24,355 nt of DNA, taken from IMG/VR virus record IMGVR_UViG_3300036814_001516, positions 1-24,355 of that record, one strand, 5' to 3'. Position numbers and translations under genes: made by a program. Shown here piece after piece: positions 1 through 23,313 of this stretch. The DNA is from a virus. Each line of letters starts with the position of its first letter. Within the stretch, counting starts at the first letter, position 1. The notes beneath the pieces were generated by a model. It searched no databases, was not told where the DNA came from, and saw nothing but the letters and a program-made list of their open reading frames with translations.

Positions 1-1
1 T

Positions 2-3000
2 GATATAGATTTAGCAACTAAAGATACAGATAATGTAGCAGAAGGATCTAATTTATACTTTACAAATGGACGAGCAGATGCTAGAATAGCACTAGCATCC
101 TTACCTGACTTAGCAGATGTTGATGCTGTTGGTGCTTCTAAGGATAATTATGTATTAACATACGATCATTCTAATACAAAATTTGAATGGTTAAAACCGT
201 ATGATTCTACAGATTTTAATACAAATTTCGGAAATAAATCTACTTTTAATTTATCAGAAGGATCTACTAATTTATATTATACTAATACTAGAGTAGATGC
301 CAGAATTGGTTTAGCAACAATAGAAGATTTGTATGATGTTGATATAACAAATCGGTCTGATGGTATGCTTTTAAAATGGAGTTCGGGTGTTAGCAAATGG
401 ATAATGGGTTCAGATGCTGGCACAACAGGCGGCGGTTCTCTAGGAGTAGGCACCTTAGTAGGATTAGAAGATACTAATTTAGGTACCCCAGGAACAGCAG
501 AAGATGGTTTACAAGTAGTATGGAATAATAACACTTCCAAATTTATATTCGGCCACGGAATTCAAGCCGCAGGACCTACACAAATTGTTACGGTTACAAA
601 TGGACAATTTTATTTAAATGGTAATTTACAACAAACCTTAAGAATATATAAAGGATTCTTATATGTTTTTAACCAAACTGATAGTACTAATATAGGTAAC
701 GAATTATATATTTCTACATCTTCAACAGGCGGCGCAAGCGGAGTAGGTGAATATACAGATGGGGTGTCTACATCAGGGAATGTAGGATCAACTTTTCAAT
801 TATTATTTAACGTCCCAATGGATGCTCCGGTGCAATTATATTATCAATCGAAATCAACTGCTAGTATGGGTGGTATATTAAATATTGATGTTGAAGGTGG
901 TAACGCATATCAGACTATAGCAGTAACAGATACAGGTACAGGGAGCTCATCGGGTGCAGACATAATAGCGGCATCATCAAGCGACACATTGACTGTAATT
1001 GCAGGCGACAATGTTTCTATAGTAACAAGTCAATCTGGAACAGATGATCAACTTACTATAAGTTCAACAGGTGCAACAGGCACAACGTCAACATTAGGAA
1101 CGCCAGCTGATACTACTTTTCATGATGGTGCATTTTTACAAAAAAACCAAACATTTAATACAGGTATTCCATTAACTGGTTTTAATACAACAGGTACAAT
1201 AACAGAAGCATTTGATGCAGTTAATGAAGTAATGTTAAACATAAGAAATGATTCATTTGTTCGACATGCTACTTTTACTGCAACTCCAGTAACAGGAAAT
1301 GCACCATTAGATGTTGTGTTTACTACAACAAGCGATTATAATGCTAATAGTTATGAATGGGATTTTGGAGACGGAAATACAGTAACTACAGCAAATGCTT
1401 CATATACCCACACATATACTACTTTTGTAGGTTCTCCATTTAATGTTGAACTTAAAGCAATTGCAACAAGTGCTAATGCCTCAGGTAGTGAAGGCAGTTA
1501 TGCGGTATTTAAACGTGACAATTATGTAACAGTTTACGCCCCATCGCCTATACCTGCAGTTGTATGTTCAACCCATGATGCAGATACAGGTACAATTATA
1601 CAGCATACAGTTAGTGATACACAATATGCAGATACATATATGATAGAATTTGGTGACGGAACAAAATATCCTACAGGTGCTGTTAACAATGATCCTTTAG
1701 GTACATCAAATACAGCATGGGCAGATATAACTAATATTCCTTATGTAGATCACACCTGGACAACAACATCAGATATTGAATATGATTTTGATTTATATGT
1801 ATGGGCACCTACAGCAGGACCTAGCGGAGAAATAGGACATTTAGATAATGATGACCATATTAAAATATATGTGCTACCAGTACCTACTTTTACTTCTGAT
1901 ACAACAACAGGTAATAGTAATGCCCCTGAAGATAATCTAGCCGCAGGATATAGTAGCACCGAAGGTTGGAGAGTAGAATTTACAAATACTACTTCAAATA
2001 TGGGAGAATTTGGTAATACAACTTATACATGGGATTGGGGTGATACTTCCGCCGATACTGTAATTGTGGATGATGGATCAAATGTCGCAGGTACACCAGG
2101 TAATGTAATTGAACATTTTTTCGAACATACAACTAATTCGAGTGTGTCACAAACATTTGATGTAACATTAATAATAGATAACGGATATAGTACTGCACCA
2201 ATAACAAGTTCAGCAACTACAATTACTGTTACTGTTGATCCAAGAGCAAGTTATACCGGCGAAACAACAACCGATTCGACCGGACATACAAACTATGATT
2301 CACAACAAATTGGATTTGAATTTACAGGATATGATGGTAATGATTATAGTTTGATTACATTTAATAATACTAGTGTTAATACAGATACATGGGCATGGGA
2401 TTTGGGAGATAATACAACTCCTTCTACACAAAATGTATCAAATCACAGTTATGCTCTCGGAACATTTAGTGTAACATTAGAAGCAACGGGCCCAACTTCG
2501 GTTGCAACAGGAAGCGTACCTGGTAGAGCCGCAACTTTTGTTGATGATACAGAAATAAAAACAGATTACATAGAAATCAAAGCGGCGCCAGTATCGCCTT
2601 CAAATTTATCAGGAAAAACTATGGGTTTAACTTCTATCGGAACTGCACCTAAACTAGCATCCGACACAACAAATAATACAACTACTACAATAACAGCAGG
2701 AGCAGATGTTGTACGAGTAACAAATTCAACAGTACAATTAGGAGAACTTAGTGATCATGTAAACAAAATTGCATCTAATGGTACAAATACAGCAACATTA
2801 ACAGCAATAATAAATGGAGCAGGTGCTGGAATAATACAATTAAATGCAACTGATCAAACAAATGTAACCAATGGAACACTAACACTTACTGTTGATGTTG
2901 ATGCAAATACAATTACTACTAATAAACCTACTATACCTGCAAATTTTTATAAAGTAATAAAAGCACAAGTAGAAAAAACAAGTACACCATTGGGTTATAA

Positions 3001-4198
3001 TGAAATTAAACTTACCCATTCCGATGGGTCTTCGTCAGATATAACAGAATTTGTGTATGATAATATAACAAGCACTCCTACTATAGCAGGTGGATGGGTA
3101 ATAACAGAATCTACTCCGGGCAATAAAAGAATAATGTCATCAATACCTTTTTATAATAATAGTGGCGAAATATCAATAAGTGGAATTACTGTAGCAAATT
3201 TAACCGGAGAAACATATAGAAATAATGGAAAAGTAAAAATAGAACCATTAACATGGGAAAATAGTATAGCAGATGATGTGTTCACACAAAAAACATATAC
3301 ATATACCGATATTGGATTAACAAATCCTCCACCTAAAAATGTGGGTGTGTTGGCTACACAAAGTCTAAGTACATTAAATATTGGGCTGACCGGTGGGACA
3401 TCGCTAGGAGTTGGTTATGCAAGAATTTTTGCTGAAAATTGTAATGGAGAAGGAACAAAAGTTGAAAGTACACAACCAATTCATTTTTGGCACGAAACTC
3501 CATTATTGGATGAACTTTCTATTTCTATTAATATGACACATGGTGCAGAAATTACTGGTGCTACAGTAGGAAAAAGAATAGATTATAGTTGGACAGGCGA
3601 TACCCCAAATTATTCGTCAAATGCTTCTAGTGATTTTTATACAACATATGCATGGAATAATTTATCTACAATTATTAATAGAACCGAAGCAGTTTGTTAT
3701 CTTAATGAAATAAAACATATGCTAACAGACTTTAGTGATTACCTACCTGCCGGACCTAATTTAAGTACAGGACGAGATAATGCAATACAATATTTTACAT
3801 TTGGTTTTAAAAGAAATGGGGCAAATAGATTTGCTATTAAAATATCAGGCGAGGTTACATCTTTGTATATAGCAATCCCGGGATATGACACAGATGACAC
3901 AAGCACATTAAATGGTTGGTTAGATTGTTCGACGTTGTTTGGAGGATCAGGGTTTCCTGGTGCCAATACTGTATCTAATAGCAACGGTATTTCAGGAAAT
4001 AATTCAAACGGTGTTCGAAAAACAGGAAGTTCTGTAGACCAAGGTAATTTTGCAATTAACACAGATCAAACAAATGCAGTTGCAAACATAGAATTAGGAG
4101 AAGCCAATACAGGCGATTCTACCAATAAAGTAATACTAGTTAGGTTTGGTATTGCGGTAAATAACAAAGTAACATCTATTTCAATAGAAGATGTTTAA
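2..4198 (+). CDS. Giant PKD-repeat phage tail/fibre-like protein, paralog 1 (5' end outside window)
   Basis: The frame is open from base 2, so the real start lies left of the window; the ATG at 329 is internal. At least 1398 residues are visible, counted from base 2. They begin with two EGS-LYxTNxRxDARI repeats (residues 14-29 and 86-102) and 'DVD' linker modules typical of marine phage fibre proteins. A cupredoxin-like module follows (about 192-300), then a linker (LGTPADTTFHDGA, DAVNEVMLNI). Four PKD-like domains have core motifs WDFGDGN (453), EFGDGT (549), WDWGD (677) and WDLGD (799). The C-terminal half holds domains shared with the next three genes (FYKVIKA, then FGFKRNGANRFAIKISGEV and ELGEANTG). 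No signal peptide or membrane segment is visible. A structural surface role, probably tail or baseplate fibre, is inferred from module families and neighbours; the exact virion position is unknown. Confidence 0.9.
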   Translation, partial: DIDLATKDTDNVAEGSNLYFTNGRADARIALASLPDLADVDAVGASKDNYVLTYDHSNTKFEWLKPYDSTDFNTNFGNKSTFNLSEGSTNLYYTNTRVDARIGLATIEDLYDVDITNRSDGMLLKWSSGVSKWIMGSDAGTTGGGSLGVGTLVGLEDTNLGTPGTAEDGLQVVWNNNTSKFIFGHGIQAAGPTQIVTVTNGQFYLNGNLQQTLRIYKGFLYVFNQTDSTNIGNELYISTSSTGGASGVGEYTDGVSTSGNVGSTFQLLFNVPMDAPVQLYYQSKSTASMGGILNIDVEGGNAYQTIAVTDTGTGSSSGADIIAASSSDTLTVIAGDNVSIVTSQSGTDDQLTISSTGATGTTSTLGTPADTTFHDGAFLQKNQTFNTGIPLTGFNTTGTITEAFDAVNEVMLNIRNDSFVRHATFTATPVTGNAPLDVVFTTTSDYNANSYEWDFGDGNTVTTANASYTHTYTTFVGSPFNVELKAIATSANASGSEGSYAVFKRDNYVTVYAPSPIPAVVCSTHDADTGTIIQHTVSDTQYADTYMIEFGDGTKYPTGAVNNDPLGTSNTAWADITNIPYVDHTWTTTSDIEYDFDLYVWAPTAGPSGEIGHLDNDDHIKIYVLPVPTFTSDTTTGNSNAPEDNLAAGYSSTEGWRVEFTNTTSNMGEFGNTTYTWDWGDTSADTVIVDDGSNVAGTPGNVIEHFFEHTTNSSVSQTFDVTLIIDNGYSTAPITSSATTITVTVDPRASYTGETTTDSTGHTNYDSQQIGFEFTGYDGNDYSLITFNNTSVNTDTWAWDLGDNTTPSTQNVSNHSYALGTFSVTLEATGPTSVATGSVPGRAATFVDDTEIKTDYIEIKAAPVSPSNLSGKTMGLTSIGTAPKLASDTTNNTTTTITAGADVVRVTNSTVQLGELSDHVNKIASNGTNTATLTAIINGAGAGIIQLNATDQTNVTNGTLTLTVDVDANTITTNKPTIPANFYKVIKAQVEKTSTPLGYNEIKLTHSDGSSSDITEFVYDNITSTPTIAGGWVITESTPGNKRIMSSIPFYNNSGEISISGITVANLTGETYRNNGKVKIEPLTWENSIADDVFTQKTYTYTDIGLTNPPPKNVGVLATQSLSTLNIGLTGGTSLGVGYARIFAENCNGEGTKVESTQPIHFWHETPLLDELSISINMTHGAEITGATVGKRIDYSWTGDTPNYSSNASSDFYTTYAWNNLSTIINRTEAVCYLNEIKHMLTDFSDYLPAGPNLSTGRDNAIQYFTFGFKRNGANRFAIKISGEVTSLYIAIPGYDTDDTSTLNGWLDCSTLFGGSGFPGANTVSNSNGISGNNSNGVRKTGSSVDQGNFAINTDQTNAVANIELGEANTGDSTNKVILVRFGIAVNNKVTSISIEDV
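41..307 (+). repeat. Two EGS-LYxTNxRxDARI fibre repeats in paralog 1
   Basis: Bases 41-88 encode EGSNLYFTNGRADARI and bases 257-307 encode EGSTNLYYTNTRVDARI. They are separated by a 'DLADVDAVG...' linker. This short repeat recurs in structural proteins of T4-like marine phages (family knowledge). More copies may lie left of the window. The two copies differ at many bases, so the duplication is old. Confidence 0.8.
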
Positions 4199-4212
4199 AG
4201 GATAAATTTAAA

Positions 4213-7200
4213 ATGGCTATTTCACAAACAGTTATAACTAATAGATTAGATAAAAAGATTAATTATGGCAAAGCAAGAACAGCAGCACATGAATTCAAAG
4301 GTCCTCTTAATGAGGCCATTGCATCACCTATGCCCCAAGGTACAGATAAATTTTGGGTAGAATCTCATTTAATACCAGCAGTAGCTCCAGCAACAAATAT
4401 TAGTTTACTAATAGATTCTTGGCAATGGGGATCCGTCGGGGGTACCACTAAAGGTATTATTGAAATGACACTAGATACTACTGTATCTAGCGGCAGAGCA
4501 TTTCTTGCTTGTTCGACAGTTGGTGTAAAAAATACAAGATTAGATTCTTGGATACCTACAACCTACGGAGCAACTTACGACGTTAAATTTTATATTGCAA
4601 CTGCCGGTAATCATGGAAATTTTAACATGCCCGGCGGCACGATCTCTGGTGCATATCAAATATTTCCTAATACAACAGGCGAGGAATTTTATTTTGATTA
4701 TAATTCAGGTGTATTTGCATTTGCTGGTGATAATATTCCTGCAGGATTAACAGGTAAGGCTCTTTATTTAGTATCAGGATGGCGGTATGTAGGGGGCAAA
4801 GGTTTAACATCGTATATACCGGCAGTTAGTTCGTCGTTGGTAGTAAAAGAAATAAACGATCCTGTTACTAACTTTTCTCAAACTGCTGTAGATGAAATAC
4901 ATTTTGATGTAGATAGTGGATTTGCACTAACAGATGTTTCGGCAGGCGGCAAACAAATTACAAAAATTGCCATGGAGAGTACCTTTAAACATTGGAATAT
5001 TTCAGGGCAAGATCCACTTACAGCATCAGGTGTTGACGAAATAACTGTTGAGGCAGGCGATGGCATAACATTAACTACAGTAACACCACCAAGTACTATA
5101 CAAACATATTATGTAAAATTTGCTAGTGGCAAGTATGTTATTGAAGATGCCGCAACTAGCGGTAACCCAGTTACATCTTTTAATTTTATTGCTGGCGGTA
5201 CATATCGTTTTGATACAAGCAATACACCATCAGGAAATAGTCAATTTGAATTTTCAGAAACAGTCGACGGCACACACACCACCGGAGGACTCACTTATTC
5301 TAATGGTATTACTTATGGCGAGGCTGGTGGTGTTAGAATATCTGATGGAGCAGCAGGAGCATATTTACAACTAAAAGGAAAAAATGATACTCCGGTTTTA
5401 TATGATTATAATGAATCAAATCCAGTAAATGGATCGGGATCTACATATACGGCACAACAAAAAACACTTATAATTAAAAATTCGATTATAGATAGTTTAG
5501 GGAATGTTATTATAACAGGTGATTTAACAGTAGGCGGAACAACAACAACTGTTAATTCAAATGTTACAACAATTGATGATCCGATTATAACATTAGGAGC
5601 AGGATCGACTGTTTATACATTTACAGATGATAATAAAGATAGGGGTATTGAATTTAAATGGCATGACGGTACAGCAGATGTTTTTGCAACTGCTATTGTT
5701 AGTGGAACGGAATATATTATTAAAACACTTGGTGATACAGACTGGACAACAGTAAGTATTCTTACAGAATTTGCCATAGGAACAATATTTACAGCAAATG
5801 CCAGCGGCTCAGCTCATTCTAACCCAGGTACTGCAATTACTTCAGAAACGTCAAAAACAGGTTTTTTTGGATTTGATGATAGTTTAGGTAAATTTACGTA
5901 TATACCAGATGGTATAAATGCATCAGAACTATACGGCGGCGACGCTGGCGTATTTGATTTAAGTGGAACATTAATAAATGAAATAAAAGATGTTAATGTT
6001 GGTACCCCAGTCGCAGGTGACGATGGAAAAGTATTAACATGGGATAATGCTACGCTTAAATTTGTACTTGCTCAACCAGGACAATCAGGATTAACATTAG
6101 GTGCACCAACCGATACAACATTTAATGATGGCGCATATTACCAAAAAAATACTATTGTCTCGGGCGGTACTTTTTTATCAGGGGTTGATACAACAGGAAC
6201 AGTATCAGATGCACTTGATGCAGTAAACGAAACTATTAAAAATATTAAAATAAACAAATATGTTCAAGGAGCAACATTTACTCCAAACGTAGCAGCAGGA
6301 AGTGCTTCACCTACAAGTCCATTAGTTGTTAGATTTTCTATTGTCGGTTGGAGTAATCCAAATGATGCAAATTATGCTGGTGAAGGGTCAAATGGTAATG
6401 CTACTCATGCAGATTGGACTTTTGACGATATAACTACTCCAGGGAATACTGTTACAGTACTTAATGATGCTGGCACTATTACATCTGGATTTATTGATCA
6501 ACAATTTATATCAACCCAAGGAGGAAATATAAATGTTACAATGACATTAAAATGCGAAACAACTACTTTACCACATATCGGACCTATGACTGAAGGTAGT
6601 TATACGACATGGAAAGAAGATGCAGCAGTTACTTTATGGATACCTAATCCAGAACCTGCTTTTACTACAAATACGACAATTGTAGATTTAGGTAGTGCAA
6701 TTCAGGCTAATAGACAAATAGTATTTGATGTTTCTACTTCGGGTTATACAGAGTTTTGGATGATGGAATTTGGCGACAACACAACATATCCTGCTACTGC
6801 TAATCCAACTGAAACAAATAACGCGAACATTAGTAGCGGTCCGGATGCGTGGGCAAATTATGCCACTATTACGCAATGGACACATGACTATGACCCAGGT
6901 GCCAATATTACAGTAGATCAACAATTTACACCTAAACTTTATTGCAGAAGTGTTACTGCCGAAGGCGGCGTTGGTAATACTCAATCGCATGAAAAACCAA
7001 CTTTCATTGACGGTTATATTCAACCTGTAGCATTATTCAATACAATAGGTGTTCTTATTGGTAATAATGATGAAAGCGGCGATATTAATGCTCAAAATGC
7101 ACCTAATATACAAGAAGGACATCCAGTAGAGTTTTCAAATGTTACTGCTAACTTAGGTACATGGGGTGATACAACTTATACTTGGGATTGGGGTGATACA

Positions 7201-9483: not shown

Positions 9484-9486
9484 GGA
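9482..9486 (+). promoter_or_regulatory. Ribosome binding site of paralog 3, overlapping the stop of paralog 2
   Basis: GAGGA starts inside the TGA stop of paralog 2 and lies six bases before the ATG at 9493. This geometry suggests re-initiation or coupling by the same ribosomes. The leader is almost the same as that of paralog 4. Confidence 0.75.
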
Positions 9487-9492
9487 ATTTAA

Positions 9493-12400
9493 ATGCCTAC
9501 GTACACATTAAATGATGTAATAACTAATAGAATTGATAAAAAAGTTAACTATGGTAAGGCTAGAACAAATTTTGATCATGAAAAAGGCCCAAATAATGAA
9601 GCCATTCCTAGTCCTAGTCCTAGTCCTTCTCATACTTTATGGATTAACAGCCATTTAATAACAGCAGTAGCACCAGCTACTAATGATAGTACTGTTGATG
9701 TTTATCAATATAATTCAAATGCTAGTAACACAACACCTAGTCCTGATATAGGTAAGGTTCAAGGTGTTATGGAACTAACAAGAGATCCTACAGTCACAAG
9801 TCATCGATCTTGGATTACATGTTCAACTATTGATATTGCAAATACTCGATTAGATAATTGGGTAAGGACTACATATGGTGCAACATATATATCTAAATTT
9901 GCAATAGCACCATCTGGTAACGGTAACGGTAATATTGACCTATCAGGTCTTACCGGATATAGAGAAATTTACCCCCAAACAACAGGCGAAGAATATTATT
10001 TTGATTATGAATCGGGTGTTTTTGTTTTTATAGGGAATATAAACGGTAGCCTATCAGGAGGCCCTGCAGATCTTTTAGCCAAAACAGGTAATGTATATGA
10101 TTATTCTGTGTATATGATAAAAGGATGGAGATACACAAGCACAATAGGATTACAGAATTATAGTTTTGGACAATTAGGAGCCGATTTAGATGTAAATGGA
10201 TTTAGCATAATATCTGTAACTAATGGTGATATTACACTTGCACCAAATGGTACCGGTAAAACAAAACTTGGCGGAATAATACATGTTACTTCTGAACAAA
10301 GTTCATCTCCGGCTGCTCCGATAGACACTGCAGGCGGCTATCTTTATACAAAACCAGACGGAAAACCATATTGGGTAAGTTATGATCAATTAGAAGTTGA
10401 TTTATCTGCAGGTAGCGGTCCTGGCGGAGTAACGTTGGGTATTCCGACAGATACAACATTTAATGATGGAGCATATTATCAGGCACTCACGGCATATCAA
10501 AGCGGTAATGTTTTATCTGGCATTAGTACCAGTGGATCAGTAGCAGATGCACTCGACGGTGTTAATGAAACAATTAAAAATATTCATAATAACACATATG
10601 TTCAAGGTGCATATTTTACTAGATCTCCAATAGAAGGTAGTGCATCGCCGGCTGCTCCGTTAGTTGTAACATTTACTATTATTGATCCTGGTGATGCTAC
10701 TCATATGGATTTAGAATTTGATAATACCACCCAAAGTACTTCTTATACGTCTGTAATAAATGATACAACTTGGAAAGATGCAGGTGGTTCGGGTGTTCAT
10801 TATTATGATTATAGTTTTACTGATGTTCTAGGAGGATCTGTTGATGTTACAATGACATTAAAATGTCAACTTGCTTCAGGGACTACAGGTCTTACAGAAG
10901 GAAGTTATTTTAAATATAAATTTACTACCGCAGTTCAATTATGGGAACCTGATCCCGAAGTTTCGTGGATAGCAGATAATAATGATCAAATTGTAGATTT
11001 GGGTGGTTCGGGAGGGGCGAGAAGAATAACATTTGATGCAAGTAATACATTATATGCACATTATTGGATGATAGACTACGGAGACGGAACAATATATCCT
11101 CCTGCTGCTAATCCAACTGATACAAGTAACGCATCAATTGCTAGTACGTGGATATCTGTAAGCAGCGGCTGGTCAGCGCCGGGTACCCAATATCATTACG
11201 ACTCACCTCCTGGGACAATAACACAAGATACTCGATGGTCACCTATAATTTATGCTCGGAGTGTAACGGCAAGAGGTAATGCAGGTTGGACTAATAGTTT
11301 AGAAAGAGTAGATTATATTGAAGGTTATATAACACCAATTGCCTCATTTACAGCAGATAATTTTACAACAGGTAATAATGATGAAATTGGTGATATTAAT
11401 GCTCAAGGTACAATTAATACAGCAGTCGGGCATCCAGTTAAGTTTACAAATACCACACAAAACTTAGGTGAATGGGGTGCCACAACATATACCTGGGATT
11501 GGGATGATGGACTTGGCTGGACAGTTATTGTAGATAATGGCCAAACTGAAGCCGGACTTCCCGGAGACCAAATAGAACATTATTTTACTTTACAAGATGA
11601 TGATATTGCTCAAACATTTGATGTAACATTAAAAGCAGAAAATAATAGAGAAAACCAGAACAACGATACATCAACAATAACAATTACTGTTAATGTTGAT
11701 CCTAGGGCCAGTTTTTCGGGTGAATTATTAAATCAAAACACATCAACTCCGACTCAAAGTTATGTTGATCCTAGAATAGGATATAATTTTACAAAATATG
11801 ATCCTATCAATGGCGGAGCAGATAGTAATGGTGCATCTAATATTGTAGACTTTACAAATAGTTCGGGTGGTATAACAGGAACTTCGCCTACATATGCATG
11901 GACATTTAATAATGGACAAACTAGTACATTATCTGATCCTCCAGACCAGACATTTACTACTGTACAATCATATGATGTAGAATTAATAACACAAAATACT
12001 AATAGTTATGCTGGTGGTACAGATGACACAGAATTAAAATCAAATTATATAACAATAAATGTTAATCCAGCAGCACCATCTGGATTAACAGGATTAACAT
12101 TGGCAGCCCCGATAAGCGTCGGCGAGTCACCATTAATTTGTGCAAATACTGAGGATAACACAGGCGGATTAGTACCAGTAGGCGGTACCCCTGTTATCAG
12201 AATAACCCATAGCTCGAGCACAGATATATCATTTCTTTTGTCTGATTGGGCAAATGAATTTCCATCAAATGGTGCATATGCGGGTGTATTAACTCTTTAT
12301 ATAAATGAAAGCATTATGATGTACAGCCATTACTGGGGCACAGTAACATTTGATGGATCTGACAAGGTCGGTTCGTATGGTACCTCAGGTACACTAGTAG

Positions 12401-13761
12401 TTACAGAAGAACGTGATGCAAATGCTGGTAATGCGGCTACATATCCAGATAATTTTTATAAGCAATTTAAAGCAGAAGCTTTGATGTCATCCGGCTATTC
12501 TGGCTCGTTCGGTGCCTTTTATGTCGGATTTAATAATATATACTTTCAACACGACGATGGTACAACCACTACCGAAACAGACAAGGTAGGATTTGTGCGT
12601 GATTATATATACCAACCCGGAAGCACCGTACGGGCACCGACTTTAATTTTAAATACTGCACTAACAGAACTCTCAGGACTATACAGTTCTTATAGATATA
12701 TGTCTGGTATTAAGTTTTATAATACAGGATCGTTGTTATATATTAAATATACTATAGATGATTTTACAACCCTAGTTTATAGAGATACAACGTCGCCGTT
12801 AACAATCAGTAGTAGTAACGGAACACCAATTGCAAGCCAAGATTTTACTTATGCTAATTTAGGTCTAACTCCTCCACTTAACAAACATCTTGGGACAAAT
12901 GGGAACAATTCGCCAACAACACCTCACTTAGCTGTCAACATAAATGGATCAGGTTCTGGTATAGACGGAATAATAAAAGCATCTGCAAAAAATGTAAATG
13001 GCACAGGTCCAGATCTAGTAGATACAACAAACATAATGTACTGGATTACATCACCTACATTAGATGAATCAAATCTTCCTAATATTATAACAAATGGATC
13101 TGCAGGCCAAGCAGGTAAAAGAATAAAATATGCATGGACAGGAACTGACTATGCTTATCCTGCATATACTCCGGGTAGTAATGATTGGTACACAACATAT
13201 GTATGGGATAGTCAAACAGATACATTGCCGAATACAAATGAAGCAGGATGTTATTTGGATAAAATTCAACATACTTTAGAAGATTTTTCGTCTAGTCACT
13301 CACCAGTGGGTGATGATTTAGGCTCAGGAAGAAGTTCGGCTGATATACAATATTTTACATATGCATTTAAACGAAATAGTATATCTAAATTTTCTATTAA
13401 AATTACAGGCGAAGTTACATCGCTTTATATAGCATTCCCACAATATAATACAGACCTAACAAGTACAATAAATGGCTGGTTAGATTGTAGTACATTATAT
13501 GACGGCGCAGGATTTCCTGGAGCAAATACAAGTGCAGGAACTCCTATAGGTAATGGTTCAAACGGTGTTCGGCGAACAGGCAGTCCGGCACAGCAAGGAG
13601 CATTTGCAGTTAATATTCCATTAACAAATGCATATGCAAATTTAGATTTAGGTGAAGCAAACACAGGATTAATGACATATCCAACCGTATTAGTACGATT
13701 TGGAGTAGCAAATGATAAATCAGTAACTGCAATATCATTAGAAGATTGGAACCCCTCGTAG
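9493..13761 (+). CDS. Giant PKD-repeat phage tail/fibre-like protein, paralog 3
   Basis: This 1422-aa protein starts nine bases after paralog 2. Its N-terminus (NRIDKKVNYGKART, then FDHEKGPNNEAI) is almost the same as that of paralog 4. After the N-terminal domain (1 to about 225) it lacks the DVDSGFALTD and cupredoxin-like blocks of paralogs 2 and 4. Instead it has DVNGFSIISVTNGDITLAPN (about 233) and a 'GGYLYTKPDGKPYWVS' stretch (about 278-295), both typical fibre modules. The TDTTFNDGAYYQ linker (about 317) and DALDGVNETIKNIHNN (352) precede four PKD-like domains. Their core motifs vary: a weak first one, DYGDGT after W525, WDWDDG at 668 and WTFNNG near 803. The FYKQFKA, YMSGIKFYNTGS and C-terminal domains (from about 1287, YFTYAFKRN and LGEANTG) match paralogs 1 and 2. 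It is probably a tail or baseplate surface fibre, inferred from modules and position. Confidence 0.93.
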   Translation: MPTYTLNDVITNRIDKKVNYGKARTNFDHEKGPNNEAIPSPSPSPSHTLWINSHLITAVAPATNDSTVDVYQYNSNASNTTPSPDIGKVQGVMELTRDPTVTSHRSWITCSTIDIANTRLDNWVRTTYGATYISKFAIAPSGNGNGNIDLSGLTGYREIYPQTTGEEYYFDYESGVFVFIGNINGSLSGGPADLLAKTGNVYDYSVYMIKGWRYTSTIGLQNYSFGQLGADLDVNGFSIISVTNGDITLAPNGTGKTKLGGIIHVTSEQSSSPAAPIDTAGGYLYTKPDGKPYWVSYDQLEVDLSAGSGPGGVTLGIPTDTTFNDGAYYQALTAYQSGNVLSGISTSGSVADALDGVNETIKNIHNNTYVQGAYFTRSPIEGSASPAAPLVVTFTIIDPGDATHMDLEFDNTTQSTSYTSVINDTTWKDAGGSGVHYYDYSFTDVLGGSVDVTMTLKCQLASGTTGLTEGSYFKYKFTTAVQLWEPDPEVSWIADNNDQIVDLGGSGGARRITFDASNTLYAHYWMIDYGDGTIYPPAANPTDTSNASIASTWISVSSGWSAPGTQYHYDSPPGTITQDTRWSPIIYARSVTARGNAGWTNSLERVDYIEGYITPIASFTADNFTTGNNDEIGDINAQGTINTAVGHPVKFTNTTQNLGEWGATTYTWDWDDGLGWTVIVDNGQTEAGLPGDQIEHYFTLQDDDIAQTFDVTLKAENNRENQNNDTSTITITVNVDPRASFSGELLNQNTSTPTQSYVDPRIGYNFTKYDPINGGADSNGASNIVDFTNSSGGITGTSPTYAWTFNNGQTSTLSDPPDQTFTTVQSYDVELITQNTNSYAGGTDDTELKSNYITINVNPAAPSGLTGLTLAAPISVGESPLICANTEDNTGGLVPVGGTPVIRITHSSSTDISFLLSDWANEFPSNGAYAGVLTLYINESIMMYSHYWGTVTFDGSDKVGSYGTSGTLVVTEERDANAGNAATYPDNFYKQFKAEALMSSGYSGSFGAFYVGFNNIYFQHDDGTTTTETDKVGFVRDYIYQPGSTVRAPTLILNTALTELSGLYSSYRYMSGIKFYNTGSLLYIKYTIDDFTTLVYRDTTSPLTISSSNGTPIASQDFTYANLGLTPPLNKHLGTNGNNSPTTPHLAVNINGSGSGIDGIIKASAKNVNGTGPDLVDTTNIMYWITSPTLDESNLPNIITNGSAGQAGKRIKYAWTGTDYAYPAYTPGSNDWYTTYVWDSQTDTLPNTNEAGCYLDKIQHTLEDFSSSHSPVGDDLGSGRSSADIQYFTYAFKRNSISKFSIKITGEVTSLYIAFPQYNTDLTSTINGWLDCSTLYDGAGFPGANTSAGTPIGNGSNGVRRTGSPAQQGAFAVNIPLTNAYANLDLGEANTGLMTYPTVLVRFGVANDKSVTAISLEDWNPS
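11621..11708 (+). repeat. 88-bp identity between paralogs 3 and 4 (partner 16257-16344)
   Basis: The 88 bases are identical and encode VTLKAENNRENQNNDTST, then ITITVNVDPRA. A further identical stretch follows at 11752-11818 / 16388-16454 (67 bp) at the same offset. Others lie upstream at 10690-10749 / 15344-15403 (60 bp) and 10815-10869 / 15454-15508 (55 bp). They mark a recent common origin or ongoing conversion of the PKD regions of these two genes. Confidence 0.9.
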
Positions 13762-13765
13762 AGGA
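13761..13765 (+). promoter_or_regulatory. Ribosome binding site of paralog 4, overlapping the stop of paralog 3
   Basis: GAGGA begins on the last base of the TAG stop of paralog 3 and lies six bases before the ATG at 13772. The site and the following start region (ATGCCTAC) copy those of paralog 3, as expected if the two genes arose by duplication of the whole unit. Confidence 0.75.
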
Positions 13766-13771
13766 ATATAG

Positions 13772-16700
13772 ATGCCTACATACACATTAAATGATGTAAT
13801 AACTAATAGAATTGACAAAAAAGTCAATTATGGTAAAGCTCGAACGGCCTTTGATCACGAAAAAGGCCCAAACAACGAAGCCATTATTAGTCCTATTCCC
13901 AATCCTACTCATAATTTATGGATTGATAGTCACCTTATACCTGCGGTATCGGGTACTGTTAATACTAATACTGTTAATTCTTATCAATATAATTCAAATG
14001 TACCTTTTGGTACAGCAGTTGGCGACTCTGCAGGTGTTATAGAGTTAACAAGAGATCCAACGGTAGCTGATCAACGATCTTGGCTTGCATGTTCTACGGT
14101 TGGTAGTTCGACTACTAGGCTCGGTGATTGGCTTAGAGCAACGTATGGAGCAACATATTTGCCTAAATTTGCTATTGCTACTGCCGGAGGCGGCAATGGT
14201 AATTATGACTTATCACAAAGATCGGATTATGAAGTAATTTATGCACAAACAACGGACGAAGAATACTACTGGGATTATGAATCCGGAGTGTTTGTTATGT
14301 TTGGAAATCCTAATAGTACGGTTCGTGCAATACTTTTAGCAGAAGGATCTGGAAGCCATACTCACTCTGTATACTTGTTTAAGGGATTTAGATATAATGG
14401 CGCAGTAGGCTTACAGAATTTTTCCGGTGGTGGTGGTGGATCTGCCTTAACTGTAGCAGAAGTAAATGATCCTAGTTCCAATGTTAGCGTTTCGTCAGTA
14501 GGTGAAATACAATTTGATGTAGACAGCGGATTTGCTTTAACTGATTTAACTGGGGGCGTTGTTAAAGTTGCAATGGAAAGTACGTTTAAAAAATGGAATG
14601 TATTAGGACAAAATCCACTAATAGCACAAGCAGTCGACGAAGTTACATTAGCAGAAGGTAGTGGTATAATATTAACAACAACAGCACCACCAAGTACTAT
14701 ACAAACATATTATGTAATAGTTAATAATAATGTATATGAAATTTGGGACGGAGCAGGCGGCACCGGTACACAACTTACTTCTTTTAATTTTATTTCTGGC
14801 GGTACATATGTTTTTAATTTAGAAGATACAACATTAGCAAGTAATCAATTTGAATTATCTGATATTGCTCCAGATGATGCAATTTATTCTAATGGTATTA
14901 CTTATGGCGAGTCTGGTGGTGTTAGAATATCTGATGGTACAACAGGAGCATTTTTACAAATAAAAGGAAAAAATGATACTGCTCCGATTTTATATGATTT
15001 TAGTTATCTCACTATTAGTTATACTTCAGGTGCAACTATTAGTGCTCAACAAAAAACACTAACAATCAGCTCAGGAGTAAGTATGGGAATAGGAACACCA
15101 ACTGACACAACATTTAATGACGGTGCATATTATCAGGCAAGTACAGCATATCAAAGCGGTAATGTTTTATCTGGCATTAGTACTACCGGATCAGTGGCAG
15201 ATGCACTCGATGGCCTTAATGAAACAATTAAAAATATTCATAATAACACATATGTTCAGGGTGCGTATTTTACTAGATCTCCAATAGAAGGTAGTGCATC
15301 ACCAAGTAATCCGTTGGTTGTAACATTTACTATTGTTGATCCCGGTGATGCTACTCATATGGATTTAGAATTTGATAATACCACCCAAAGTACTTCTTAT
15401 ACGCCTGTAACAAATGATACAACTTGGACAAGTGGTAACTCTTATACCTACAATTTTACTGATGTTCTAGGAGGATCTGTTGATGTTACAATGACATTAA
15501 AATGTCAATCGGCTTCGGGAATTACGGGTCTTACAGAAGGAAGTTATTTTAAATATAAATTTATTGCCGCTGTTCAATTATGGGAACCTGATCCTGAAGT
15601 TTTATGGACGACAACAAATAATGATCAAATTGTTGATTTAGGTAGTGGAACTGCGGCCGATAGAGAAATAGAATTTGATACAACTAATACATTATATGCA
15701 CATTATTGGATGATAGAATTTGGCGACAACACAACATATCCTGCTACTGCTAATCCAACTGAAACAAATAACGCGAACATTAGTAGCGGTCCGGATGCGT
15801 GGGCAGATCATGATGCTATTCAGAAATGGACACATGACTATGACCCAGGTGCCACAGTCACACAAGATACTCGATGGACTCCTATAGTTTATGCTCGGAG
15901 TACAACTGCAAGAGGTTTGGTAGGGTGGACCAATAGTTTAGAAAAAGCAGATCATATTGAAGGTTTTATAACACCTATTGCAGCATTTACAGCAGATAAT
16001 TCAACAACAGGTAATAATGATGAAATTGGTGATATTAATGTTCAAAATGCAACTAATACAGCCGTCGGGCATCCAGTTAAATTTACAAATACCACACAAA
16101 ACTTAGGTACATGGGGTGATACAACTTATACTTGGGATTGGGGTGATTTAACACCTGACACAACTGTAACAGGTGGCGATAATGTTGATGGAGATTATCT
16201 CAATGACATAGAACATTATTTCACTTTAGCAGATGACGGTATATCCGAAACATTTAATGTAACATTAAAAGCAGAAAATAATAGAGAAAACCAGAACAAC
16301 GATACATCAACAATAACAATTACTGTTAATGTTGATCCTAGGGCAAGTTTTTCGGGTGAAATTACAAATCAAAACACATCAACTCCTACTCAAAGTTATG
16401 TTGATCCTAGAATAGGATATAATTTTACAAAATATGATCCTATCAATGGCGGAGGGCAATCCACGGCATCTAATATTGTAGATTTTACAAATAGCTCTAC
16501 AGGACTAACAGATGATGGTACTGCCCTTAATCCTACATATGCATGGACATTTAACAACGGACAAACTAGTACAATATCTGATCCTCCAGACCAGACATTT
16601 ACTACCTCTCAATCATATGATGTAGAATTAATAACACAAAATGATAATAGTTATGCAGGCGGTACTGATGATACAGAAGTAAAAGCAAATTATGTAACTA

Positions 16701-18406
16701 TAAATCCTACTCCTGCGAGACCAGCTGGATTAACAGGTTTAACAATAGCAGTTCCTGCTTCGGCGAGCTACACGGCTGATACCGCAATTTGTGCAGACAC
16801 AGATGACAATACCTTGTTGGGTTCTGCACCAACTGGCGGTACTCATGTTAATATACAGATAATAAATAGCATGACGTCAGATGAATTAAATAATTGGGCA
16901 AACGAATTTCCGTCAAATGGAACATATTCTGGTACACTGAAAGCACATGTAAATGAATCAAGTAATAATATTGATGGTATGGTAGTGTTTACAGGTGCAA
17001 ATAAAATCAATAGATGGGATAGTGCCGGAAATATTGATGCTGGGGGTTTGTTAGAAATTACACAAGAACGTGATGCAAATGCTGGTGATCCGACTACATA
17101 TCCAGATAATTTTTATAAGCAATTTAAAGCAAAAGTTCACATAACTGGACTATCTCCGGGATATAATACAGTCCAATTAAAACATTTCGATCCAATCCAT
17201 GGATTGCCAACTGTATCTACTCAATCTCAATGGGTATATGATGATGTAACTGCCATTCCCGTTATTGCATCGTTTGGTACAGTAACAGAAGGAACTGGTT
17301 CTTATAGATATATGTCTGGTATTAAATTTTATCATACAGGATCGACATTAACAGTTACAGGATTACAAATAAATGATTTAACAGGACAAACATATAACGA
17401 TACAAACTCTCCGTTAATCATGGCTCAAACTGATTTCATTTACCCAACTGGCTATACTTATACTCAGTTAGGAGTAGGTGCAATTCCTTCTAAAAATTTA
17501 TCTCCTACTGTATCTGCCTTAACAGTACCTATTGTTGATGTTGGGGGCGCTGGTCACGCCGCCGTCGACGGAAAACTAAAAGCACTTGCCTTTAATGTAA
17601 ATGGTTGGAGTGCTACTCTAGTAGATACAACAAACATAATGTATTGGTTATCAACATCAATTGAATTTGATGAAACATCTTTTATTAATAATATGGAAGC
17701 TGGAGCAGTATCTGGATCAGATACTGATTGTAAAAGAATAGATTTTATCTGGACTGGAACTGATTATGCATATCCCAAATATTTTACAGGAGCTTATTAT
17801 ACTGGAAGTGATATCTATACTAATAATCAATGGGATAAAACCACTGCAGACCTGGAGTATACAAAAGAAGCGGCTTGTTATTTAGATAAAATACGATGGG
17901 ATAGAACAGATTTTTCGACAGGATATTTACCTGTAGGACCTGATTTAAGTACAGGCAGATCGACAACCGATCCACAATTCTTTACTTTTGCATTTAAGCG
18001 AAATAGTATAACAAATTTCTCTATCAAATTAACAGGAAAAGTATCGTCTTTATGGGTTGCAATGCCTGGGGCTTGGAAAAACTTCTCTGGTAATCCTGTC
18101 TATTTGGATGAAACAAGTGGTTCTAATGGATGGTTTGATGCATTAACAAATGGAGCAGGCGTACCATTTCCCGGAGTAAATACTAGCGGGGGAATAGACG
18201 GTAATGGTAGTGATACTTGTAGAGCAACCAATTTTACCAGCAACATTGTTGCTGGTACTGCTGGCACAGATATAGGAACTAATGTAACATTTTATCAATT
18301 TAATACACAAATAGGTAATTGGACAATATTAGTTAGAGTAGGATTAGCAGATAGTAGTCATTATGTTGATACAATATCAATAAAAGATTCACAGGATTAT
18401 TCGTAG
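13772..18406 (+). CDS. Giant PKD-repeat phage tail/fibre-like protein, paralog 4 (mosaic of paralogs 2 and 3)
   Basis: This 1544-aa protein has an N-terminal domain (1 to about 222) like paralog 3. It then carries the DVDSGFALTD block (about 228) and cupredoxin-like module (about 313-410) that otherwise occur only in paralog 2. The TDTTFNDGAYYQ linker (about 441) and first PKD-like domain again follow paralog 3. EFGDNTTYP (about 649) and WDWGDL (788) lie in tracts copied from, or shared with, paralog 2. The fourth PKD-like core is WTFNNG (925). FYKQFKA and YMSGIKFYHTGS domains follow. The last 140 residues keep FAFKRNSITNFSIKLTGKV but diverge in SSLWVAMPG, GGIDGNGSDTCRAT and the final strands, and lack ELGEANTG. 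It is probably a surface fibre with a partly different tip; this is inference. All domains are in frame, with no sign of decay. Confidence 0.93.
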   Translation: MPTYTLNDVITNRIDKKVNYGKARTAFDHEKGPNNEAIISPIPNPTHNLWIDSHLIPAVSGTVNTNTVNSYQYNSNVPFGTAVGDSAGVIELTRDPTVADQRSWLACSTVGSSTTRLGDWLRATYGATYLPKFAIATAGGGNGNYDLSQRSDYEVIYAQTTDEEYYWDYESGVFVMFGNPNSTVRAILLAEGSGSHTHSVYLFKGFRYNGAVGLQNFSGGGGGSALTVAEVNDPSSNVSVSSVGEIQFDVDSGFALTDLTGGVVKVAMESTFKKWNVLGQNPLIAQAVDEVTLAEGSGIILTTTAPPSTIQTYYVIVNNNVYEIWDGAGGTGTQLTSFNFISGGTYVFNLEDTTLASNQFELSDIAPDDAIYSNGITYGESGGVRISDGTTGAFLQIKGKNDTAPILYDFSYLTISYTSGATISAQQKTLTISSGVSMGIGTPTDTTFNDGAYYQASTAYQSGNVLSGISTTGSVADALDGLNETIKNIHNNTYVQGAYFTRSPIEGSASPSNPLVVTFTIVDPGDATHMDLEFDNTTQSTSYTPVTNDTTWTSGNSYTYNFTDVLGGSVDVTMTLKCQSASGITGLTEGSYFKYKFIAAVQLWEPDPEVLWTTTNNDQIVDLGSGTAADREIEFDTTNTLYAHYWMIEFGDNTTYPATANPTETNNANISSGPDAWADHDAIQKWTHDYDPGATVTQDTRWTPIVYARSTTARGLVGWTNSLEKADHIEGFITPIAAFTADNSTTGNNDEIGDINVQNATNTAVGHPVKFTNTTQNLGTWGDTTYTWDWGDLTPDTTVTGGDNVDGDYLNDIEHYFTLADDGISETFNVTLKAENNRENQNNDTSTITITVNVDPRASFSGEITNQNTSTPTQSYVDPRIGYNFTKYDPINGGGQSTASNIVDFTNSSTGLTDDGTALNPTYAWTFNNGQTSTISDPPDQTFTTSQSYDVELITQNDNSYAGGTDDTEVKANYVTINPTPARPAGLTGLTIAVPASASYTADTAICADTDDNTLLGSAPTGGTHVNIQIINSMTSDELNNWANEFPSNGTYSGTLKAHVNESSNNIDGMVVFTGANKINRWDSAGNIDAGGLLEITQERDANAGDPTTYPDNFYKQFKAKVHITGLSPGYNTVQLKHFDPIHGLPTVSTQSQWVYDDVTAIPVIASFGTVTEGTGSYRYMSGIKFYHTGSTLTVTGLQINDLTGQTYNDTNSPLIMAQTDFIYPTGYTYTQLGVGAIPSKNLSPTVSALTVPIVDVGGAGHAAVDGKLKALAFNVNGWSATLVDTTNIMYWLSTSIEFDETSFINNMEAGAVSGSDTDCKRIDFIWTGTDYAYPKYFTGAYYTGSDIYTNNQWDKTTADLEYTKEAACYLDKIRWDRTDFSTGYLPVGPDLSTGRSTTDPQFFTFAFKRNSITNFSIKLTGKVSSLWVAMPGAWKNFSGNPVYLDETSGSNGWFDALTNGAGVPFPGVNTSGGIDGNGSDTCRATNFTSNIVAGTAGTDIGTNVTFYQFNTQIGNWTILVRVGLADSSHYVDTISIKDSQDYS
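15716..15854 (+). repeat. Recipient-side tract A in paralog 4 (partner 6766-6904)
   Basis: Just upstream (up to about 15718) paralog 4 matches paralog 3, sharing the bases for LYAHYWMI. Inside the tract it matches paralog 2. After 15855 it again follows paralog 3 (TQDTRW, YARS). The tract is a clean patch inside an otherwise paralog-3-like gene. Confidence 0.9.
16100..16147 (+). repeat. Tract B in paralog 4 (partner 7150-7197)
   Basis: The offset to paralog 2 is 8950 bases, the same as for tract A. The sequence just upstream (FTNTTQN) matches paralog 3 almost base for base, so the switch falls within the PKD core. Confidence 0.85.
16257..16344 (+). repeat. 88-bp identity between paralogs 4 and 3 (partner 11621-11708)
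   Basis: This is the partner copy in paralog 4. Identity breaks immediately outside on both sides at single bases; the wider region stays highly similar. Confidence 0.9.
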
Positions 18407-18419
18407 GAAAGTATAAATT

Positions 18420-19289
18420 ATGCCAGATTTTAATTTAAATGATGTTATAACTGATAGGATAGATAAGAAAGTTAACTATGGTATGGCAAGGACTGACTAT
18501 AGTCCTCCTGTTGCACCTACTAGTGAATCTCGATTAAGTCTTATTCCTAATCCAACTCATAATTTATGGATTAATAGCGATAATATTCCCGGAACTGCGC
18601 CAACAACAAATACAGCCGATGTCGGTGTATACAAATATAAATCTGGTGAAACTCTTGGATCAGGTGTTGGTGATATTCACGGTGTTATAGAAATGACACG
18701 CGACACCGGTGTACCTAACCAACGTACATGGTTAGCATGTTCTACTGTTGATAATGATGGAACAATACTTAAAGATTGGATTAGATTTACATATGGTGGA
18801 CAATATTCTGTTCGATTTGGTTTTGCATATGCTGGGTACGGAAATGGTAATATCGACATATCAAGCAAATCTGAATGGGTTGAATTATATCCAGATGCTG
18901 GAGGAAAAGAATGGTATTTTGACTACGAAGGTGGTGTCTGGACCATGTTTGGTACACCAGGAACAGGCCAAGGATCACCAGTACCAGATAGTAAACTTAC
19001 AGAAGGCGGCGCAGGAAATTATACATGGTCTGTGTATATGATGAGAGGTTACAGATATATTGGTACTACTGGATTAAAAAATTATGCAAGTGGAGGTAGT
19101 TCTGCCCTTGAAATTTTAGATGAATCAACTGTTTTATCTACAGGAGCAACTAAACTTACATTTACAGGATCAGGAGTAATTGCCACAGTACCGGATCCTG
19201 TTGTTCCTAATGAAATTTTAGTAACAATACCCGGTGGGGGTGGCAGCGGCGGCGGTATTAGCATCGGATTAGCAATAGCATTAGGATAA
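18420..19289 (+). CDS. Short relative carrying only the N-terminal module of the giant paralogs
   Basis: This 289-aa protein starts with LNDVITDRIDKKVNYGMART and keeps the rest of the N-terminal domain: NPTHNLWINS, GVIEMTRD, WLACSTVD, WYFDYEGGVW and MMRGYRYIG-TGLKNY (ending about residue 223). It then has one small beta module (ILDESTVLSTGATKLTFTGSG, about 228-250) and a glycine-rich tail (GGGGSGGG) with no PKD domains. AGGAAA at 18405-18410 supports the start. The next gene begins three bases after its stop, so there is no room for lost PKD sequence and nothing suggests a frameshift. It could be a stand-alone anchor or cap on the site used by the giant proteins, or a truncated duplicate that was kept. 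Function is not known. Confidence 0.88.
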   Translation: MPDFNLNDVITDRIDKKVNYGMARTDYSPPVAPTSESRLSLIPNPTHNLWINSDNIPGTAPTTNTADVGVYKYKSGETLGSGVGDIHGVIEMTRDTGVPNQRTWLACSTVDNDGTILKDWIRFTYGGQYSVRFGFAYAGYGNGNIDISSKSEWVELYPDAGGKEWYFDYEGGVWTMFGTPGTGQGSPVPDSKLTEGGAGNYTWSVYMMRGYRYIGTTGLKNYASGGSSALEILDESTVLSTGATKLTFTGSGVIATVPDPVVPNEILVTIPGGGGSGGGISIGLAIALG

Positions 19290-19292
19290 CAT

Positions 19293-19628
19293 ATGGCTGA
19301 AACATTTAAATTAAAAACAATAGCAAATGTCGACAATATAGCAGCAGATCTTCTCTATACAACCCCTGCGACTACACAAACCATAATATTGGGGTTGGCA
19401 ATTGCTAATACAAGTACCAATGGTGTAAAAGTAACCGTAACTTTAGAAAGTAGTACAGGTACAAACGCAAATATAACATTATTACATGAAATATCTGTAC
19501 CCCAGAATGCAACATTAGAAGTATTGTCAGGACAAAAAATGGCATTGCAGGATGGCGATGTTTTAAAAATAATAGCAAATACAATCAATGCAATTGATGT
19601 TGCATTAAGTGTTTTGGAGATAAGTTAA
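19293..19628 (+). CDS. Small conserved phage structural protein, unknown function
   Basis: This 111-aa protein is predicted to be all beta, with alternating hydrophobic and polar strands (VKVTVTLESST, ITLLHEISVP) and the phrase 'GQKMALQDGDVLKIIAN' near residues 79-95. There is no signal peptide or membrane helix. I recall similar small proteins beside fibre genes in T4-like marine phages, where they are annotated as hypothetical. AGGA at 19283-19286, inside the end of the preceding gene, is its ribosome binding site. It starts three bases after that gene's stop, and its own stop overlaps the next start (TAATG). A small virion or fibre-accessory protein is the most I can infer. Confidence 0.82.
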   Translation: MAETFKLKTIANVDNIAADLLYTTPATTQTIILGLAIANTSTNGVKVTVTLESSTGTNANITLLHEISVPQNATLEVLSGQKMALQDGDVLKIIANTINAIDVALSVLEIS

Positions 19629-20110
19629 TGTATATTGGATCATCGGCAAGAACGGTTAATCCGTCAGAAATTATAGATCAGAAAGAATACACAGTAAGTG
19701 ATAGTAGCGATATTATTGTTAATACTATAGATTATTATAGATTTTATTGTAATTATACACCGGGTAATGTTTCTTTATTTGTTCAAGGTATATTAGTTGC
19801 ATCATCAGCATATGTTGCAGATAACGGTACTGATGTTAGAATAGAAAAAGCAACTGTAACATTAGCTAGTACAGCCGAAATACAGATAATAGGTTATAAT
19901 GTACCAACAAGTCAAATGTTAGAAAGATCAGATGTTAGTATAACAGGTGGCAATATTACCGGTGTTGAACAGGTTGGTTCAAACTTTTTTATGAATAAGA
20001 ATTCTTTTGCTGCTGACATAACAATACCTGAGAATACAAATGCATTTTTTTGCGGCCCGGTAGATTTTACAGGTACTATAAATGTTAATGGGGTGTTAAA
20101 CATATTATGA
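19628..20110 (+). CDS. Small fibre-type protein with 'TPGNVSLFVQG' and 'INVNG-LNI' modules
   Basis: This 160-aa protein has two recognisable parts. Residues about 21-95 (EYTVSDSSDI, YTPGNVSLFVQGILVASSAY, TDVRIEKATVTL) match a beta module in which phage structural proteins carry 'G-I-VFVNGV-L---DYTA--GT-I'. Residues about 128-160 (FAADITIPENTNAFFCGPV, INVNGVLNIL) match a short C-terminal stretch that ends many phage fibre or appendage proteins, often as a right-handed beta turn. The start overlaps the previous stop by one base and the stop overlaps the next start by four (ATGA), which implies translational coupling. GGAGA at 19616-19620 is its ribosome binding site. It is likely a virion decoration or fibre-accessory protein. 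Confidence 0.82.
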   Translation: MYIGSSARTVNPSEIIDQKEYTVSDSSDIIVNTIDYYRFYCNYTPGNVSLFVQGILVASSAYVADNGTDVRIEKATVTLASTAEIQIIGYNVPTSQMLERSDVSITGGNITGVEQVGSNFFMNKNSFAADITIPENTNAFFCGPVDFTGTINVNGVLNIL

Positions 20111-22752: not shown

Positions 22753-23313
22753 ATGTATATATCACACAAATCAAATATACTTCATCAAGTCCATGAAACA
22801 GAATGGCAATGTAGGAGATTATCAAAAGGACTTACGAAGCCTGAGTACTGGGCTTGGTTGGATTCTATAACTTCTGGTGATCCACCTGTAACTGATTATA
22901 GTGGAGAAACAGGATATACTATTGTCAAATGCATTGATGAAAATGTTCAGGCAAGACTTAAACAACTTAATGATTATATAAGTAGCGGTTTCAATATTAA
23001 ATGGTCTGACACTAAAGTTTCGGCAGTTTTAGGACAGGATAGTAATGGTAATAATATTACCATTGAGACTCATTTCATAGGTGATGATATTGCAAAAGAT
23101 GCTAGTTTATTAGCAAAAATGTGGGTAAGTGTTAGAGATAACCGTAATCGTTTATTAGCAGAAACAGATTGGATAGTAACACAAGCATTAGAAAAAGAAG
23201 AATCTATTTCAGTTCCGTGGAAAACTTATAGAGAATCTTTGAGAAATGTTCCGGAAATAAATAATAATGTAATATTTGAACAAAATATTATATGGCCAGA
23301 AAAACCAGAATAA
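22753..23313 (+). CDS. Phage tail assembly chaperone-like protein (fibre-associated)
   Basis: This 186-aa protein is soluble, with no signal or membrane segment. Its C-terminal third carries the pattern I know from the phage tail assembly chaperone family (Phage_tail_APC type): VRDNRNRLLAETDW (residues about 127-140), then WKTYRESLRNVPE (about 156-168) and a closing WPEKP. The N-terminal part (ECRRLS-like 'WQCRRLSKGL', PEYWAWLDS) is not assigned. Such proteins are usually encoded beside tail-fibre genes, as here, between a fibre and a tail-collar protein; they are thought to help fibres fold or attach. TAGGTAA at 22741-22747 overlaps the previous stop and acts as a modest ribosome binding site. 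The family match is from motif memory and not from a search. Confidence 0.8.
   Translation: MYISHKSNILHQVHETEWQCRRLSKGLTKPEYWAWLDSITSGDPPVTDYSGETGYTIVKCIDENVQARLKQLNDYISSGFNIKWSDTKVSAVLGQDSNGNNITIETHFIGDDIAKDASLLAKMWVSVRDNRNRLLAETDWIVTQALEKEESISVPWKTYRESLRNVPEINNNVIFEQNIIWPEKPE

Follow-up and report, generated by a model that had tools for sequence, protein, structure and literature searches.

A 19-kb row of giant PKD-domain genes in a putative jumbo phage: candidate plug-and-socket links of one long fibre

Gene Organization of the Locus

The window analysed here is an entire record of 24,355 bases from an uncultured marine virus of bacteria, in which five consecutive intact genes, A to E, follow one another in the same orientation (+ strand) with intergenic gaps of 9–14 nt (Table 1). 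Long direct repeats of up to 300 nt, with 60–94% DNA identity, connect the five genes, and the initial annotation of this DNA as a row of about 19 kb made up of five related genes, four of them encoding at least 1398 aa, holds in that the genes are intact, repeat-linked and on the same strand. The overlapping contig IMGVR_UViG_3300027847_002098 (G009), which is 100% identical to A over the common 1398 aa, supplies the complete A of 1859 aa, and contig G001 prolongs the right end of the window. Beyond the array, the 878-aa neighbour found zero matches in the phage collection, and the GWGDHSxAGY repeats of the window's collar fibre recur inside the last N-module protein of two relatives, G004 and G008.

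Table 1. Features of the window (N-module, phrog_9417-like; C-region, phrog_8578-like).
Feature	Coordinates	Strand	Size (aa)	Remarks
Gene A	2..4198	+	1398+	5' end cut by contig end; fibre-like-repeat N-terminus (from G009), about four PKD-like domains, C-region; no N-module
PKD-like region of A	1244..2551	+		Pfam plus sequence reading; approximate boundaries
C-region of A	2588..4195	+		PHROGs, iterated profile; proposed socket for the N-module of B
Gene B	4213..9483	+	1756	N-module, linker, PKD-like domains, C-region
N-module of B	4213..4806	+		PHROGs, iterated profile
PKD-like region of B	6250..7782	+		Sharply different in the near-identical strain G009
C-region of B	7792..9480	+		Structure model: tandem all-beta domains, pLDDT 80
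Gene C	9493..13761	+	1422	N-module, linker, PKD-like domains, C-region
N-module of C	9493..10152	+		Iterated profile
C-region of C	12067..13758	+		Iterated profile
Gene D	13772..18406	+	1544	N-module, linker, PKD-like domains, C-region with divergent tip
N-module of D	13772..14413	+		Iterated profile
C-region of D	16712..18403	+		Last ~200 aa divergent, in step with the likewise outlying N-module of E
Gene E	18420..19289	+	289	N-module alone; would be the last link or an adaptor
111-aa protein	19293..19628	+	111	phrog_1276/26609; counterpart after the array in G008 (31% identity) and G004
878-aa protein	20107..22743	+	878	Relatives only in near-identical contigs
Tail-fibre assembly chaperone	22753..23313	+		PF16778
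Collar-domain tail fibre	23324..24355	+		PF07484; 3' end cut

We infer from gene content that the window virus is a jumbo myovirus with T4-type head genes, because its relatives G008 and G004 carry gp20 portal, gp21 protease, gp23 capsid and gp15 genes recognized by Pfam, and because the capsid protein is closest (74%) to that of the Sinorhizobium jumbo phage Phosso (469 kb), followed by those of Vibrio 2.275.O, PA5oct and GAP32. The earlier description as a marine T4-like phage therefore stands as far as these T4-type genes of close relatives are concerned, whereas the nearest capsid protein belongs to jumbo phages and not to ordinary small marine T4-like phages. Among named phages, the whole of B and D matched jumbo phages almost exclusively, namely the phiCbK group infecting Caulobacter and Brevundimonas, Salicola SCTP-2, Phosso and Atu_ph07; A additionally matches cyanophages.

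The capsid proteins of G004 and G008 are 90% identical, yet the entire fibre block is relocated and inverted between them relative to the capsid genes. Within the fibre gene region, both also carry a gene for a tryptophan halogenase-like flavoprotein (G004 15042–16760, locus L030; G008 70524–72242; PF04820, E 9e-76 in G004) that runs against the direction of the surrounding genes.

Domain Families and Structure Models

The large proteins exhibit a common architecture. PKD domains (PF18911/PF00801) are found above the Pfam curated cut-off in A and B and below it in C and D (E 0.002–0.006), and sequence reading gives four PKD-like units in each of A–D, in agreement with the initial estimate of about four. 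The C-region of A–D corresponds to phrog_8578 (E 1e-33 to 1e-44; function listed as unknown in PHROGs), and an iterated profile of this region spans positions 1–465 or more of 468 in all four proteins; it is absent from E, which has the N-module only. The N-module corresponds to phrog_9417 in B–E (E 1e-22 to 1e-28) and finds no match in A, whose full-length copy on G009 begins with an unrelated, fibre-like N-terminus. An N-terminal module common to all five proteins was thus correctly recognized for B–E and does not extend to A. Overall, the common C-region, N-module and PKD-like domains bear out the view of A–E as related long fibre-like proteins. Preceding the PKD block is a hinge motif with a weak match (E 0.2–1.7) and a constant position. 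PKD blocks were considered as a speciality of the window lineage, an idea that was dropped on finding PKD in broader relatives.

No description of function was found for the phrog_8578/phrog_9417 pair of families. When compared with the PDB, the C-region model (pLDDT 80) displays a loose Ig-like adhesin likeness, with TM below 0.2, and is accordingly given no fold-level function, whereas the N-module prediction (pLDDT 41) is unusable, so that this module is not identifiable by fold. Profile searches against PDB sequences gave no matches, the T4 fibre families gp34, gp35, gp36 and gp37 are absent from the Pfam and PHROGs scans of A–E, and Pfam detects general PKD (Ig-like) domains and not the Hoc family. 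In plasmids, no match to the N-module was found.

Order of the Two Modules Across Phages

Because the complete A has no N-module, the window array reads C, N+C, N+C, N+C, N, with four C-regions and four N-modules. This order proves to be general. Each of the 19 arrays in which both ends were scored, as well as the truncated G003, follows the pattern C, (N+C)x0–3, N, and in over one hundred further sets of phage genes the C-region (below, the proposed socket) comes before the N-module (the proposed plug). Starting from the C-region side, 38 loci were found with 45 C-regions and 45 N-modules, an N-module following every C-region. Starting from the other side, at least 545 relatives of the N-module were found in IMG/VR, and the best loci among them contain 80 N-module genes, which represent 32 clusters at 70% identity. 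All 79 of these genes that could be tested lie directly 3' of a C-region gene, with gaps of −41 to +48 nt, and the 80th is cut by the start of its contig.

The pairing is also obligate in number. In all 19 whole records the count of N-modules equals that of C-regions (30 and 30); four of these genomes (G010, G012, G013 and G014) hold two separate C-N pairs, and in L085 the counts are still equal though the last N-module lies 5 kb away. The four genomes with two pairs are of 415–578 kb, and their pairs lie on opposite strands, 14–38 kb apart.

Among named phages, CcrPW, CcrSC, Bambus, Kabachok, Bajun, Phosso and Atu_ph07 have the order C, N+C, N, while phiCbK, SCTP-2 and most other arrays carry the modules on two adjacent proteins, the C-region protein always being first. 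The number of proteins varies from two to five, which argues against a set of exactly five fixed orthologs, and the suspicion that an array of this size is unusual proved justified, as the four N-modules and junctions of the window are the most seen, every other array or record examined having two at most.

Tenacibaculum phage PTm1 carries a single recognizable and remote N-module, found with the N-module profile in ORF-291, and ORF-290 lies 10 nt upstream. A Foldseek search with the C-region model matched a 629-aa PTm1 protein, A0A5S9BZ79, a likeness that is structural only (13% identity). A prediction set beforehand, that the gene upstream of ORF-291 encodes this protein, held in that ORF-290 is 629 aa long; the identification of A0A5S9BZ79 with ORF-290 is based on this equal length, and the sequence by itself gives no support for ORF-290 as a C-region protein.

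Covariation and Strain Variation

If the C-region and the following N-module dock, their variation might be expected to be correlated. Across the window, G008, G004 and G003, the divergence of the C-region tip and of the next protein's N-module follow each other, the true pairing ranking 1 of 48 within-genome pairings with r 0.83 (r 0.69 without the near-duplicate G003), in contrast to the N-module and C-region of the same protein (r −0.02, six pairs). D's tip and E's plug are joint outliers; in addition, the plug of the last gene in G004 (G004.L) is 81% identical to that of D, and the tip of G004.A is 71% identical to C's tip and 42% to D's own. In the phiCbK-type group, on the other hand, the true pairing is not favoured (rank 5 of 16). 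It should also be noted that a socket end and the next plug adjoin on the DNA, so that linkage alone could yield covariation.

The middle of the proteins behaves differently from the ends. Between C and D, dS is 0.35 in the PKD block, 0.97 in the plug and 1.09 in the tip, the lower value indicating that the middle has been exchanged more recently than the ends. G009 and the window agree completely over A and ~600 N-terminal residues of B, after which identity falls to ~50–70% in B's PKD block, the divergence between these near-identical strains setting in abruptly at window positions 6100–6700. The sequences thus support a change of allele in B's PKD stretch and suggest allele exchange in an exposed shaft. 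Chimeric assembly was considered for the divergent allele and is disfavoured: the stretch is closest to B (68%) and identical to no window paralog, but because it lies at a contig end, some doubt about the allele remains.

Gene Neighbourhood and Location on the Virion

Of the 52 loci that extend far enough upstream, 22 have a gp23-type capsid gene at a distance of 1.4–6.1 kb upstream on the same strand, and it occurs nowhere else in the loci; none was found in the other 30. The pair is downstream of the capsid gene in phiCbK, CcrPW and Bambus, the array of G008 is on the same side, and the PTm1 pair precedes a head-closure (Hc2) neck gene. In G004 and Phosso, the array is not near the capsid gene. 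For the window phage itself, G009 places the array 9 kb downstream of gp23, A being preceded by genes for a gp21-type protease, a gp23-type capsid protein and then three paralogs of ~335–366 aa. These three tandem paralogs (335, 362 and 366 aa; 8096–11557 of G009, locus L039, reversed) are alike over ~150 N-terminal residues and then divergent, and in other phages a relative of them is often located between the capsid gene and the C-region gene; they are possibly a capsid decoration protein and fibre base.

The ends of the arrays are also informative. The A-type proteins of G004 (54785–60367) and L058 (4466–9931) have a weak N-terminal lysozyme domain (PF00959, E 3e-4 and 1e-5), which implies that the proximal end of such a fibre can bear a cell-wall enzyme. 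The last protein of L163, of 2710 aa, has the N-module first and lectin plus collar domains at its end, an architecture that suggests the polarity of the fibre. Considering the gene neighbourhood and the occurrence of the pair in phages with head filaments or capsid hairs, such a fibre would probably form part of the head or neck and be a head filament. Kinship with the capsid fibres of phage 7-7-1, whose capsid filament genes are reported as unknown (PMC12796354), was also looked for, and this phage gave no N-module match.

A Serial Fibre and Its Alternatives

We propose that A–E are successive plug-and-socket links of one long fibre, most likely a head filament with A nearest the virion, and would put the probability of this reading at roughly one half (0.52). 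The C-region of each of A–D would serve as a socket for the N-module, or plug, of the next protein (B–E), and the proteins would join end to end in the gene order A-B-C-D-E, A with its different N-terminus being the link nearest the virion. The last link may be a bare plug, as in E and phiCbK gp74, possibly serving as the mount for a further tip, or may combine the plug with a distal adhesin portion, as in G004, G008 and L163. The PKD-like domains would constitute the exposed, strain-variable shaft of each link, and the complete chain, presumably adhesive, would be long, at 6870 aa.

The initial annotation had instead regarded the N-module as an anchor fixing all of the proteins to one kind of site on the virion, the large proteins being separate adhesins of which a particle would carry a mixture. 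The homology of the N-modules of B–E and the variation of the PKD parts between paralogs and strains are consistent with such parallel adhesins. However, A carries PKD-like domains and a C-region without an N-module, most arrays place the two modules on separate adjacent proteins, each lacking the other's module, and an N-module always has an upstream C-region partner. Since a virion anchor would be expected on the adhesin itself and would need no such partner, the array pattern fits joining in series, and the order rule, the equal counts and the covariation lead us to prefer the serial fibre and to regard parallel adhesins as quite unlikely. It is also conceivable that pairing and covariation are by-products of tandem duplication and linkage between modules that do not interact, as each C-region and the next N-module lie within ~50 nt and are thus co-inherited, and duplicating a C-N unit preserves equal counts. 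Nevertheless, the separate pairs of G010, G012, G013 and G014 always retain both halves, the counts in L085 are equal in spite of the 5-kb distance, and no array with one half lost was seen across the 32 N-module clusters, which makes this explanation very unlikely.

Two further readings accept that the modules work together. The N-module protein might cap or assemble the preceding C-region in the manner of a chaperone, large arrays then being tandem pairs and not a chain; many last N-module proteins are indeed small (210–360 aa) and their genes adjoin or overlap the C-region gene, as chaperone genes often do. N-modules, however, also start proteins of 1300–3500 aa, some with terminal lectin and collar domains, the middle proteins bear both modules, and a true fibre chaperone (PF16778) is separately encoded in the window, so that we consider this fibre-plus-partner arrangement unlikely. 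Alternatively, the same serial fibre might be attached to the tail or baseplate instead of the head. This would accord with the chaperone and collar fibre genes downstream of the array, the lysozyme domain of the A-type proteins in G004 and L058, the tail-fibre-like last link of G008 and G004, and the records of Caulobacter phages that name the homologues tail proteins. These labels are probably transferred annotation, though, and given the recurrent placement of the pair shortly behind the capsid gene or among head/neck genes, and the head appendages of phiCbK, Atu_ph07 and PTm1, a tail location seems somewhat unlikely.

A broader reading of the serial fibre, offered tentatively and at rather less than even odds, is that the plug-and-socket joint, so far without a name, is widespread, that phages, a good number of them giant, build variable-length head filaments by inserting links whose pairs are specific and co-adapted, and that the gene pair is the basis of the phiCbK-type filament. 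If this is true, the window phage bears the longest chain seen, its four-junction chain being the longest among the arrays examined. The pair, present in at least 545 environmental stretches and in one order wherever examined, would provide testable candidates for at least the phiCbK-type filaments. If the joints are specific, moreover, they would represent a natural case of an extensible fibre design, and 19 kb of related giant genes could be accommodated without the need for many attachment sites.

Comparison with Known Systems

The T4 long tail fibre, in which gp34, gp35, gp36 and gp37 are joined end to end in gene order, resembles the proposed fibre in its working; the window array instead reuses one homologous plug-socket pair at each joint. 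In CBA120 tailspikes and multi-depolymerase Klebsiella phages, adhesins are mounted on adhesins via dedicated N-terminal domains. These branched receptor-binding systems differ from the window arrangement, which would be linear, and their docking domains found no match to A–E in the family scans.

Further parallels come from phages that share one or both of the modules. PTm1, which has hair-like protrusions on its capsid (PMC13282480), would have one junction, between ORF-290, directly upstream and apparently of C-region-like fold, and the remote N-module of ORF-291. Atu_ph07 (gp326-gp325-gp324) and Phosso (123-124-125) have the three-part order C, N+C, N, with three links of ~310–720 aa, and Phosso also has the nearest capsid protein. 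Atu_ph07 exhibits whiskers that are mainly capsid-associated, and its virion cluster as defined by mass spectrometry, CDS 284–329, spans gp324–326, an assignment that applies at the level of the cluster only (PMC6102473).

Finally, the phiCbK-like phages (Dolichocephalovirinae) differ from the window phage in having a siphovirus body, two or three links instead of five, an N-only last link and no PKD block seen between the hinge and the C-region. The gene for the phiCbK head filament is unproven; gp76 is the published candidate, and virion mass spectrometry detected eight proteins, gp73 and gp74 not among them (PMC3556154). In phiCbK, gp73 (C) is followed by gp74 (N), in CcrPW the triad is gp94-gp95-gp96, and the giant lectin-like gp76 comes afterwards. 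These phages thus share with the window the same two families in the same order, downstream of the capsid genes, and they bear a head filament.
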